This document shows positions 5,445-11,855 of a stretch of DNA of 32,166 bases, one piece after another. Source of the DNA: Erysipelotrichaceae bacterium (GTDB lineage Bacteria; Bacillota_I; Bacilli_A; Erysipelotrichales; Erysipelotrichaceae); assembly GCA_015058875.1 (NCBI GenBank), contig SVBN01000031.1, positions 1 through 32,166 on the forward strand. The letters are read 5' to 3'. The position numbers and the translations under genes are program-made. A model generated the notes under the pieces. The model was not told where the DNA came from. It saw only the letters and a program-made list of their open reading frames with translations, and searched no databases. How positions within the stretch are numbered: the stretch's first letter is position 1; each line of letters begins with the position of its first letter.

Positions 5445-5473
5445 TTGACTATTGTCTCTGCGGCAATGATAAT
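5445..5473 (+). promoter_or_regulatory. Promoter of the lysine riboswitch transcript
   Basis: TTGACT (5445-5450), a 17-bp spacer and GATAAT (5468-5473) predict a start near 5480, about 15 nt before the first riboswitch helix. Confidence 0.7.
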
Positions 5474-5494
5474 GTCACCAGGAAAACTGATCGA

Positions 5495-5653
5495 AATAGA
5501 GGCAGCGGTGCAGATAAGTACGATGCGGAGCCGGCAGGCAATGAAGCATATGGAAAGGCAATCACCGCCGAACGACGGAATCAGGCGTGAGACCGGCGTG
5601 GGGATGCGGATAAGATCCGTACCACTCCTTCACAGAAGTGAAGAGGCGCTATT
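5495..5653 (+). promoter_or_regulatory. Lysine riboswitch (L box) aptamer
   Basis: The conserved order of lysine riboswitch elements is present. P1 pairs AATAG (5495-5499) with CTATT (5649-5653). The AGAGGC(A)GCGGTG...AGATAAGTA block follows, and P2 closes with GCGGTG (5505-5510) and CACCGC (5563-5568) after the typical GGAAAGGCAATC. CGGAT/ATCCG (5607-5611/5615-5619) and CTTCAC/GTGAAG (5628-5633/5638-5643) form later arms before GAGGCGCTATT. The 159-nt length is close to the class. Lysine binding is expected to favour the downstream terminator and so lower expression of the gene at 5731. Confidence 0.85.
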
Positions 5654-5670
5654 ACGTATGGAGTGTATGC

Positions 5671-5702
5671 AACCGTATGTAATGGCATACGGTTTTGTTT
5701 TT
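5671..5702 (+). terminator. Riboswitch expression-platform terminator
   Basis: AACCGTATG (5671-5679) pairs perfectly with CATACGGTT (5686-5694), followed by TTTGTTTTT-like sequence. GTATGC at 5665-5670 can instead pair with GCATAC at 5685-5690, which would be an antiterminator. This fits transcriptional OFF control by lysine. Confidence 0.8.
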
Positions 5703-5730
5703 CCGGGCTACATTTGAGGAGGAAATATTT

Positions 5731-7428
5731 ATGCAGCACTTCACACGTACAGCGGCTTCAGTTCTGACTGCCGCACTCCTTCTGGCAGGATGCTCATCCG
5801 GATCCGGAGGCACGGCATCCGAGACAGCGGCTCCTGCAGGCAGCGAAACTGCCGCGGCGGAAACAGCCGGTGCAGAAACAAAAGATCATGTAACCGTAGC
5901 GGTATTCTCACAGTTTACGGATCTCGATCCTGCGACCAACGGCGAACTGGTCAACAGCCATGTAATGCATCATCTGTATGCGACAATGTTCCGCAATAAT
6001 GCCGACAATCAGCCGGAGATGGAACTGTGCACAGATCATCAGGTATCTGACGACGGTCTTGTCCATACATTCAAAATCCGCGAGGATGCTGTATGGAGTG
6101 ACGGCACGCCGCTGACTGCAAATGATTTTGTCTACGCATATCTGCGTGCGCTGAGCTTCGGCGTGGATTCTTCCAATGCTGTCTACAATATGAATGTATT
6201 TATTGAAGGCGCGGAAGAATACAACCTGAGAGCGCTCGAAGCAGGCGACTCCTTCGACTGCACAACCGAAGACCACAGCGGCGTCGGTATTGAAGCGCCG
6301 GATGATTATACACTTGTGCTTACACTGAAGATGCCCTGCACATATCTGACAACACTGATGACCAGCGGCGCATGGATACCGCTGCCCCAGAGCACTCCCC
6401 AGCATGACAACCAGTGGGCACTCGGCACTGGATATCCGACCAGCTTTGCATACACTGTCACAGACATGAATATCAATGACAAGTGCGTTCTGGAAAAGAG
6501 CGATACATTCTATGATGCGGATGACGTCATCATGCCTGAGATTGTATGGCAGGTAGTTCCGGACAGCGAATCCCAGCATCTCGCATTTGAATCCGGTGAT
6601 ATCGATGTCGCAACAGAGGTTTCTTCCGATACAGCACTTTCCTATCTTGATACAGAGTCCCTGTGGGTCATGATTGATCCGTCCAGCTATGCAATCATTA
6701 TCAACACCGGTGAAAAGGGACCTGAATGGGCAAAGGACGTCCGTGTCAGAAAGGCTCTGGCTCTGGCAATCGATCAGCAGTCTGTAGTCGATGTCATCGG
6801 CGGTGATACATTCTATCCGGTTCTGCACAGCTTCCTGCCGTTCGGCCTGGAAGGCATCAACGGCGACTTCCGTGAAGAACGCGATGCGGAAGGCGGCTAT
6901 GATCTGAGCTACGATCCCGACCGTGCAAGAGACCTCCTGGCACAGGCGGGATATGATGAAAACAATCCGCTCCATATCGAATACTACTATTCCACAAACT
7001 CCATGCACGGCGATGTTGCAACATGCCTGCAGAATATGTGGAGCGCAGTAGGCGTGGATGTCAGCTTCAGAGCTGTTGAATCCGGCGTTTACTACGATGC
7101 ATGGTATGACGGCGACTATGAAATCGCACGTTACGGCGTATCCCTGAGCCATCCGATCACAGCCATGAACATGTGGACAACCGGCTACCAGCAGGTTCCG
7201 ACAGTCAATGATCCTGTCTATGATGAAATGATGGCTGATATTCAGGCGACTGTTGATGCAAAGGAAGCACTGCAGAAGACACATGATATCGAAGATTATC
7301 TGATCGATCAGGAAGTTCATCTGATTCCGATGTTCCAGTTCACAACACCGATGCTGAAGAATCCGAATCTCCACGGAAATGAATCACATTCCGCATACCT
7401 CTGGTTCGGCTACAGCTACTTTGATTGA
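5731..7428 (+). CDS. Family-5 extracellular solute-binding lipoprotein (OppA-like)
   Basis: The product is 565 residues from ATG 5731, which follows GAGGAGG at correct spacing. The N-terminus MQHFTRTAASVLTAALLLAG ends in a lipobox with Cys21, then a Ser/Ala/Glu-rich linker to ~50. The rest is the SBP_bac_5 fold: LDPATNGELVNSHVMHHLYA, WSDGTPLTANDFVYAYLRAL, DVRVRKALALAIDQ and a DPDRARDLLAQAGYD segment. Family members deliver oligopeptides or other solutes to ABC importers. Lysine riboswitch control suggests peptides or lysine-containing solutes (inference). No permease or ATPase gene follows, so it is an orphan receptor using a transporter encoded elsewhere. A strong terminator ends the unit. 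Confidence 0.9.
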   Translation: MQHFTRTAASVLTAALLLAGCSSGSGGTASETAAPAGSETAAAETAGAETKDHVTVAVFSQFTDLDPATNGELVNSHVMHHLYATMFRNNADNQPEMELCTDHQVSDDGLVHTFKIREDAVWSDGTPLTANDFVYAYLRALSFGVDSSNAVYNMNVFIEGAEEYNLRALEAGDSFDCTTEDHSGVGIEAPDDYTLVLTLKMPCTYLTTLMTSGAWIPLPQSTPQHDNQWALGTGYPTSFAYTVTDMNINDKCVLEKSDTFYDADDVIMPEIVWQVVPDSESQHLAFESGDIDVATEVSSDTALSYLDTESLWVMIDPSSYAIIINTGEKGPEWAKDVRVRKALALAIDQQSVVDVIGGDTFYPVLHSFLPFGLEGINGDFREERDAEGGYDLSYDPDRARDLLAQAGYDENNPLHIEYYYSTNSMHGDVATCLQNMWSAVGVDVSFRAVESGVYYDAWYDGDYEIARYGVSLSHPITAMNMWTTGYQQVPTVNDPVYDEMMADIQATVDAKEALQKTHDIEDYLIDQEVHLIPMFQFTTPMLKNPNLHGNESHSAYLWFGYSYFD

Positions 7429-7452
7429 GAACCACCCTGACATCTTTCGGGG

Positions 7453-7477
7453 AATGCCCGGCAATATGCCGGGCATT
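7453..7477 (+). terminator. Intrinsic terminator of the binding-protein gene
   Basis: A perfect 10-bp G/C-rich stem pairs 7453-7462 (AATGCCCGGC) with 7468-7477 around AATAT. A moderately T-rich tail follows. Confidence 0.75.
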
Positions 7478-7579
7478 TCAGTTTCTTCTGACATTCCGGA
7501 CCGGCATGAACCGGAAATTCTATTTCATTTGTGAAGGAAATGTTTTATCATTTTAGGTATAGGAAAAAGGAGTAGATAT

Positions 7580-9323: not shown

Positions 9324-10319
9324 TCAGCTTCCGGATCCGGTTCCTGTGCTGAAGTTCGGGACACTGCTGAGTTCACTGTCCATCAGTCCGGATTCTTTCA
9401 GCAGGCTGATTCCTTCTTCGCCGAACTTCTCAGTGATTCTATGAATCAGTGTTTCGAACTTTGCCTGCTTCTTTTCCATCTTTGCCAGTTTGGTTTCCAT
9501 CTGTGTACGCTCGGTTTCCATCTTTGCCCGCTCGGTTTCCATCTTTGCCCGCTCTTCTTCCATCTGTTTCTGCATTTCCTTTTTTGCTTTTTCAACGGGT
9601 CCCATCGGGTATCGTTTCATATCAAGTTCTCCTTCCTCTATGTATGCTTCCAATCCTTCGAATTCTGTTGTTCCGGTCATCTCTTTCAGCAGTGCAAATA
9701 CTTCCTTCGGGTGCTTCAGCTTCTTCGGCTCCGGATGGAATTCTCCTGTCTGCCGCATCTGCCTGCAGAAATCCGCCACGGTAAACAGATCGCTGTCCAG
9801 CAGACTGACTTCTTCTTCACTCAGTCCGCCCAGATCAATGACGTTGTAGATGTAATTTGTCTGCAGGCTCTGCATCGCTTCCGGCAGAGGCTGGACCTTC
9901 TTCCATGAGCGGAAATCCTTCGGAGTATGCCATCTGTCAAATCCATAATACAGCCCGATTGTGAAGACGGAGTACACGGATTTCGGCATATGATCATCTA
10001 TGACCTGATTTTTTAACATTGAACTGACATATCCGGGGAATTTTAAAAACAGCCTGTTGTCATCATCGGACATGTTCTCAATTCCGAACGCCGCAATGAT
10101 CATATTTCCATTCTTCCAGCCTTTTACGACATCACGGTAATATTCACGGAAATCGCCTTCCGTGTCTTCATAGGAAGAACGGGTATCCATATCAATCAGG
10201 TCTTGCGGCCTCAGCGTACCTTTTCCTTTCAGCACGAGATTATTCACCGCATCGCAGAACACTTCGGGATAGCTGAGCAGGTTCTTTTCGGCAATGTCTT
10301 TTGTATTTCTGACTTTCAT
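9324..10319 (-). CDS. Rpn-like family protein (putative PD-(D/E)XK nuclease/transposase)
   Basis: The product is 331 residues from the ATG at 10319, preceded by AGAGGTGG; an upstream in-frame start at 10400 lacks a site. The N-terminal ~230 residues resemble the large Rpn/PD-(D/E)XK nuclease family of gut Bacillota: a DAVNNLVLKGKG start region, a Tyr/Arg-rich FREYYRDV segment and FTIGLYYGFDRWHTP. Residues ~255-300 are a charged coiled coil made of heptads of the form AKMETER encoded by 21-bp repeats. The C-terminus is a short Ser/Gly tail. Rpn proteins are linked to DNA cleavage and RecA-independent recombination, but many homologues are untested. I could not place every catalytic residue with certainty. 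Confidence 0.6.
   Translation of the reverse strand: MKVRNTKDIAEKNLLSYPEVFCDAVNNLVLKGKGTLRPQDLIDMDTRSSYEDTEGDFREYYRDVVKGWKNGNMIIAAFGIENMSDDDNRLFLKFPGYVSSMLKNQVIDDHMPKSVYSVFTIGLYYGFDRWHTPKDFRSWKKVQPLPEAMQSLQTNYIYNVIDLGGLSEEEVSLLDSDLFTVADFCRQMRQTGEFHPEPKKLKHPKEVFALLKEMTGTTEFEGLEAYIEEGELDMKRYPMGPVEKAKKEMQKQMEEERAKMETERAKMETERTQMETKLAKMEKKQAKFETLIHRITEKFGEEGISLLKESGLMDSELSSVPNFSTGTGSGS
9477..9581 (-). repeat. 21-bp tandem repeat encoding coiled-coil heptads
   Basis: Units begin at 9477, 9498, 9519, 9540 and, degenerate, 9561. Each starts CATCT and encodes seven residues. Units 3 and 4 are nearly identical (differing near 9555-9557), suggesting recent duplication by slippage. Confidence 0.85.
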
Positions 10320-10832
10320 CTGCCACCTCTTTCTGTTAAGAATATATGCAGAAAAAATCTGATCCCCGCAAATTTTCCGGAAAAATATTCGAAAAGTCAT
10401 TTTTTATGCCATATGCAGTCAGGAAGGGGTTATCTGAATGAATGCCCCGTTTCATGAAGCCGGGAGCTGTTCAGTTCAGCTGATATATGATATTGCCGGG
10501 ATGAACAGATCCGTAAAAACAGCAGAATGAATCAGTGCATCAGGCAATGCCGGTTTATGAACCGGATATGATACAAAAGATTGACGGCCAGATGACGCAT
10601 TGAAGATTATCCGCGGATATGAAAAAATAAAAGTGTTTTATCAGAGTACTTTGAATCGTTTGTGAACAGTCAGGATCGGAGCACCCGGTTGAATAATGCA
10701 GGAAGAAACTGAAAGAATGCGCCGGCCGCATCCGGTTAAAAGATGTGTGCAGATGGAATGAAATGATTGCCGCAATAACCGGAGGAAAGCAGTCCGTCAC
10801 GTTCGGCAGGATGGAAAGGATCGGATCTTGTT
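10320..10832. other. Intergenic region, no convincing gene
   Basis: The 513-bp spacer lies between the divergent Rpn-like and CvpA-like genes. It holds a perfect 6-bp hairpin (CCGGTT 10550-10555 / AACCGG 10560-10565) with no T run, and a 30-codon ORF at 10438-10530 behind AGGAAGGGG (10421-10429) that resembles nothing I know. I see no RNA gene or repeat. Confidence 0.45.
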
Positions 10833-11638: not shown

Positions 11639-11644
11639 ATGTGC

Positions 11645-11855
11645 GTTACGTTGAAGAAGAACGAGTAGGTCAGGCAATGCGGCAGAGAGAGACGGGGGAT
11701 GGTGAAACCCGGAGCGCAGAACCCGGGTGAACTGAGCTTCGGAGCAGCCGCATGACAGGCGTTATCTGTCGGAATGAGTGCACGTTTATACGTGAACTAA
11801 GGTGGTACCGCGTTGATTCAGACGTCCTTAGATGAAAAGGGCGTCTTTCTTTTTT
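11645..11855 (+). promoter_or_regulatory. T-box leader, leucine specifier (CTG)
   Basis: The stem I landmarks are present: GAGTA, AGAGAG, then the distal GGTGAAACCC region. The specifier loop reads GAA-CTG-AGC, putting the Leu codon CTG at 11732-11734. The T-box sequence AAGGTGGTACCGCG (11799-11812) contains the UGGN bulge that pairs with the tRNA 3' end. A terminator follows directly. Uncharged tRNA-Leu is expected to stabilise the antiterminator and switch leuS on. The specifier agrees with the downstream gene. Confidence 0.92.
11821..11855 (+). terminator. T-box regulated terminator
   Basis: GACGTCCTT (11821-11829) pairs with AAGGGCGTC (11837-11845) with one G-U pair, then a T-rich run to 11855. 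It competes with the antiterminator formed by the T-box sequence. Confidence 0.85.

Follow-up and report, generated by a model that had tools for sequence, protein, structure and literature searches.

The window, a stretch of 32,166 nucleotides, carries on its forward strand a single-gene unit in which a complete lysine riboswitch leader precedes a gene for an OppA-like substrate-binding lipoprotein. The features of this unit are as follows.

5445-5473, + strand: sigma-70-type promoter, TTGACT-17-GATAAT, consensus score 10/12, conserved in three orthologous leaders (G157, G159, and G180)
5489-5659, + strand: lysine riboswitch aptamer (RF00168), covariance-model match of 63.6 bits
5492-5499, + strand: 5' strand of the P1 helix, pairing with 5649-5656 with one mismatch (Rfam alignment; the outer two pairs are our own extension)
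5648-5661, + strand: 5' arm of the antiterminator, GCTATTACGTATGG, comprising the P1 3' strand and a few further bases, in 14 continuous pairs with 5673-5686
5673-5686, + strand: 3' arm of the antiterminator, CCGTATGTAATGGC, overlapping the terminator's 5' stem and loop and pairing with 5648-5661
5671-5702, + strand: intrinsic terminator, stem 5671-5694 followed by TTGTTTTT, -12.6 kcal/mol, its design shared with the three orthologs and with C103, another leader of the same genome
5716-5724, + strand: ribosome binding site, GAGGAGGAA, read from the sequence, 6 bases before the ATG at 5731
5731-7428, + strand: orphan OppA-like (family-5) substrate-binding lipoprotein of 565 aa with lipobox LLLAGC, from the ATG at 5731 to the stop codon ending at 7428
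7451-7479, + strand: intrinsic terminator closing the single-gene unit, 13 pairs with a T-rich tail

The next gene past the closing terminator encodes a PPi-dependent phosphofructokinase, and no permease or ATPase gene is adjacent to the receptor gene, which agrees with the description of the receptor as "lone" in an earlier, sequence-only reading of this locus. Further along the window, an ORF on the minus strand (9324-10400) has a repetitive, coiled-coil-like tail (TERAKMETERAKMETE...); a scan of 332 of its residues matched nothing in Pfam or NCBIfam.

The leader and its expression platform

The aptamer matched the lysine riboswitch model over its full length (model positions 1-182, E = 1.4e-14, gathering score 30), and it was the sole match above the gathering score when the complete window was run through cmscan against Rfam 15. 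The sequence-only reading had claimed a full L-box aptamer here and had named a covariance-model search as the way to check it; the score, at more than twice the gathering score, bears the claim out. All 34 of the 34 near-invariant columns, defined as at least 93% conserved across 47 other aptamers from the same bacterial family, are kept both in the window and in the three orthologs, and there is therefore no sign of an altered ligand. Judged by its sequence, the aptamer is a regular member of the known lysine riboswitch class, and the RNA itself is unremarkable: it shares a complete aptamer, a near-invariant core, and a terminator/antiterminator platform with the L-boxes on lysC, lysA, dapA, lysP, lysW, yvsH, and lysXY.

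The stretch singled out in the earlier reading begins at the -35 box (5445), with the aptamer proper starting at 5489, and ends with the stop codon of the receptor gene. Its claim of a good promoter held up as well, as the three orthologous leaders carry TTGACG-17-GATAAT at the same place. Promoter-like sites in the region as a whole showed no excess over chance (4 observed vs. 3.7 expected).

Two mutually exclusive states were found in the expression platform: P1 together with the terminator, or the antiterminator with its 14 pairs. The antiterminator duplex (5648-5661 with 5673-5686) has a computed stability of -18.1 kcal/mol, which was equalled by 0 of 2000 shuffles, and the antiterminator hairpin is computed at -18.6 kcal/mol vs. 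-12.6 kcal/mol for the terminator. The competing terminator and antiterminator described in the earlier reading are thus both present. The same layout was found in the leaders of the three orthologs and in C103, the other lysine riboswitch of the genome.

This architecture predicts a transcriptional OFF switch. With lysine scarce, the nascent leader would form the antiterminator, RNA polymerase would read through, and the lipoprotein would be made. With lysine plentiful, binding to the aptamer would lock P1 (5492-5499 with 5649-5656) and take away the 5' arm of the antiterminator; the terminator (5671-5694 plus the U run) would then fold, and transcription would be expected to end in vivo.

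Conservation and distribution of the arrangement

The closest relatives that we found were the three Solobacterium assemblies G157, G159, and G180, at least two of them from ruminant gut, in which the receptor is 75% identical. Searches with laxer filters placed a riboswitch directly upstream of this receptor in each of them (67.6, 77.3, and 68.9 bits, respectively). The possibility that the orthologs lack the riboswitch, raised by negative RF00168 searches under default filters, was rejected as a filter artefact, and riboswitch censuses under default filters are undercounts.

A total of 126 lysine riboswitch loci were sampled from the bacterial family, their targets were grouped by BLAST, and representatives were named by Pfam. 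Family-3 lysine-type ABC receptors were the most frequent target (57 loci), followed by lysA (26), YfcC/DcuC-type carriers (14), dapA (9), the sodium:alanine symporter family (5), amino acid permeases (4), OppA-like receptors (4), amidohydrolases (3), and NhaC-type carriers (2); two targets were unassigned. The sodium:alanine symporter family genes and the amidohydrolase-3 genes (L023, L025, L098, and others) are both missing from the list of targets in the 2017 lysine riboswitch survey (PMC5584792). The four OppA-like loci comprise that of G159 and one each from G035, G078, and G104, which are species of a second genus; the riboswitches of these three scored 78.3-83.3 bits. There, too, the receptor is an orphan and the leader looks alike, with a GC-rich terminator stem past the aptamer. 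Once the window, G157, and G180 are added, OppA-like receptors with a lysine riboswitch are found in seven species.

A recent gain in the window's species alone is ruled out by the orthologs and the second genus. In a maximum-likelihood tree the two groups of riboswitch-led receptors are separate, and strongly supported branches force at least two label changes. The wiring of riboswitch to receptor therefore either arose on two or more occasions or was lost repeatedly, and the tree is compatible with both.

These comparisons also bear on whether the riboswitch might be a non-functional or incidental leader that was captured by copying and is not under selection. The window aptamer is 70-74% identical to those of the orthologs, which are the nearest, and then 73% identical to lysX-type leaders such as C103; this resemblance suggests, without proving it, that the window aptamer may have been copied from a lysX-type leader. 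However, the core, promoter, terminator, and antiterminator are all kept among leaders that are only about 70-74% identical, and the arrangement recurs on a second, separate receptor branch, which makes an incidental leader extremely unlikely. Lysine control of the orphan receptor is, on these comparative grounds, a well supported prediction: the core is canonical, terminator and antiterminator exclude one another, and the arrangement is present in three further species and in a second genus.

The second riboswitch of the window's genome, C103, precedes a lysine-type ABC importer, as is usual for known L-box targets, whereas the target in the window is an orphan OppA-like receptor. The 2017 survey reports biosynthetic and transporter genes, plus Mycoplasma oligoendopeptidase F as the nearest case, and no peptide receptor (PMC5584792); nor does a C. 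difficile review include a peptide receptor among lysine riboswitch targets (PMC11477304). No lysine riboswitch on an Opp receptor was found in the open-access literature searched, a scope outside which the founding 2003 survey falls, and an earlier mention is possible. What is new here is the target and the setting in which it occurs, not the RNA.

The receptor, its candidate transporter, and lysine supply

The protein begins with a signal peptide with lipobox (MQHFTRTAASVLTAALLLAGC, read from the sequence) and has one Pfam match, SBP_bac_5 (E = 3.4e-68, 230.9 bits vs. a cut-off of 32.4), which spans most of its length, as in OppA, DppE, and MppA. The OppA-like target of the earlier reading is thereby confirmed. 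Among solved structures the best matches were B. subtilis DppE (6e-46) and E. coli OppA (3e-41), MppA entries ranked among the top, and the hits also included AgaA and AccA. The score against the NCBIfam OppA equivalog NF011684 was well below its cut-off (164 vs. 947 bits). By these matches the receptor is homologous to OppA, not an assigned OppA.

In OppA, Asp419 holds the amino terminus of the peptide. Unlike in the characterized proteins, this residue has no clear counterpart in the alignment: it aligns to a Ser, in a segment that differs in length between the proteins compared. Close paralogs have Ser, Thr, or Asn at this position, followed by His-Pro, and receptors from Opp operons have an Asp nearby. 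An AlphaFold2 model built from a seven-sequence alignment was too poor to locate the pocket (mean pLDDT 37.7). Binding of peptides with a free N-terminus is therefore not assured, and a non-peptide lysine derivative is possible. The switch could then operate as described on a receptor for free lysine or for an opine-like or glycated lysine. Besides the unmatched Asp419, this is favored by the usual service of lysine riboswitches to lysine importers and by the presence of opine and nickel-chelate receptors in family 5 (AgaA and AccA among the matches). The best matches are nevertheless DppE and OppA, the genome already encodes a family-3 lysine-type importer behind a riboswitch, and the most similar operon-borne receptor belongs to an Opp operon. 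We consider such a ligand unlikely.

A peptide receptor without a permease of its own would need one from elsewhere. Opp-type ATPases and permeases are encoded at three loci of the window's genome (C40, C62, and C64), and systems of the C64 and C62 types were also seen in G159 and G180. These complete transporters make it plausible that the receptor shares an Opp permease encoded elsewhere. The receptor of the C40 operon is 47% identical to that of the window, the C64 receptor 21%; the leading candidate for a partner is the C40 permease, because its receptor is the most similar operon-borne one. The use of one permease by several receptors is known for Borrelia and pneumococcus (PMC5736914, PMC11192437). 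The Borrelia OppA paralogs and pneumococcal AliA/AliB, which are served by one Opp/Ami permease, resemble the present case in having multiple receptor genes located away from the permease operon. They differ in that here individual receptors have leaders for different amino acids and that permease sharing is, for now, our inference. Additional orphan OppA-like receptors, about 55% identical to the C40 operon receptor, occur in G159 (L118, 2964-4658) and G180 (L122, 2276-4039) behind a plain promoter with no recognised leader RNA.

The earlier reading had proposed import of lysine-rich peptides through a shared transporter. The shared transporter stands as plausible in view of the three loci and the C40 receptor; "lysine-rich" overreaches, "lysine-containing peptides" is the most that the context supports, and the residue aligned with Asp419 is not Asp.

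No match to lysA was found in the window's genome (G000, 93% complete), nor in G157, G159, or G180. Across the genus, 51 of 70 genomes have some lysA match and 36 of 70 pass the cut-off, and in many relatives a riboswitch lies directly in front of lysA. All 4 of these 4 genomes with a riboswitch-led receptor (G000, G157, G159, and G180) are without any lysA match vs. 15 of the 66 others, in a comparison of mostly incomplete assemblies in which three of the four are closely related and thus not independent. A link between the absence of lysA and the riboswitch-led receptor is suggestive on these counts, and the gut bacterium from which the window comes appears to be unable to make lysine. The family-3 importer led by the C103 riboswitch is of the lysine/arginine/ornithine type, and peptides would be a second lysine route beside this importer of free lysine.

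We therefore favor, at a probability of roughly two in three, a transcriptional OFF switch on a peptide-scavenging receptor whose peptides pass through an Opp permease from another locus, in a cell that lacks lysA. The receptor would most likely capture lysine-containing oligopeptides and hand them to an Opp permease, most likely that of the C40 operon, complementing the C103 importer with its own lysine riboswitch.

Sister receptors with T-box leaders

Paralogous orphan receptors have T-box leaders. Those with a His specifier (CAC) are G000:C65, G157:C201, G159:C80, and G180:C20, and those with an Arg specifier (CGC) are G157:C214, G159:C57, G180:C70, G185:C260, and G185:C266. Specifiers were read by a rule calibrated on synthetase leaders from the same genome, in which the specifier is followed by a purine, 5-6 bases, and GAG. 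This rule returned GCT Ala, GTC Val, TCC Ser, ATG Met, TAC Tyr, ACT Thr, ATC Ile, and TGC Cys and, with one extra base, AAA Lys, TGG Trp, and CTG Leu; it fits most synthetase leaders, with the pheT leader deviating and hisS ambiguous. The T-box before hisS (L143, G000:C66:6440-6640) contains an overlapping GACAC that can be read as GAC (Asp) or CAC (His). A fixed-offset reading of the specifier after GAA was discarded, as it was wrong on the leucyl-tRNA synthetase leader. The window itself has a T-box before a leucyl-tRNA synthetase gene (11642-11832, + strand; 84.7 bits, just below the Rfam gathering score; specifier CTG).

Two further T-boxes in the genome precede lipoprotein genes of other types. 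A T-box with its specifier read as Arg (CGC) lies before a family-3 amino-acid-binding lipoprotein (L136, G000:C122:2128-2343), a counterpart to the orphan family-5 receptors that have Arg T-boxes in the sister species. A T-box with TGG (Trp) in the specifier region (L146, G000:C63:5958-6205) precedes a lipoprotein resembling a TrpX-type ABC receptor.

The paralogs with His or Arg T-boxes recall the T-box leaders known on amino-acid transporters; the sensor in the window differs from these in being a metabolite riboswitch. A T-box survey does not mention peptide transporters (PMC2494555). We found hisD to be absent in G000, G157, G159, and G180. In contrast, argH is present in G157, G159, and G180, the species carrying Arg T-box receptors; the Arg receptors are therefore not explained by loss of argH, and auxotrophy does not cover all members. 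No recognised leader RNA was found on C79 or the tandem genes, which at 60-67% identity are the paralogs nearest to the lysine receptor.

The T-boxes also bear on a third possible ligand. The receptor might salvage cell-wall peptides that contain lysine (murein tripeptide), in the way that MppA and DppE handle murein peptides of their own. This would fit the rank of DppE as the best match among solved structures and the MppA entries near the top of the same list, and lysine in the peptidoglycan, if present, would increase the lysine need of a cell without lysA. The His and Arg T-boxes on the paralogs point instead to a general supply of amino acids, because neither His nor Arg normally occurs in murein, and we regard recovery of murein peptides as decidedly improbable. 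Import of lysine-containing peptides gains further weight from the absence of lysA together with the His and Arg T-boxes on the sister receptors.

A tentative generalization for this family of gut Firmicutes would be that its enlarged repertoire of orphan Opp receptors corresponds one to one to RNA amino-acid sensors (lysine riboswitch, His T-box, Arg T-box), each receptor preferring peptides of its amino acid and feeding shared Opp permeases, so that the leader RNA predicts specificity. We hold this as a possibility rather than an expectation. Protein sequence is a poor guide to the specificity of Opp-type receptors, and our data suggest that the RNA switch ahead of one could indicate which substrate the receptor imports. 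If the leader names the amino acid supplied, ligands could be assigned by leader, and the genomes of uncultured gut bacteria could show which amino acids they need. If the favored reading of the window is true, lysine riboswitch control would reach beyond lysine synthesis and the import of free lysine to include peptide scavenging.
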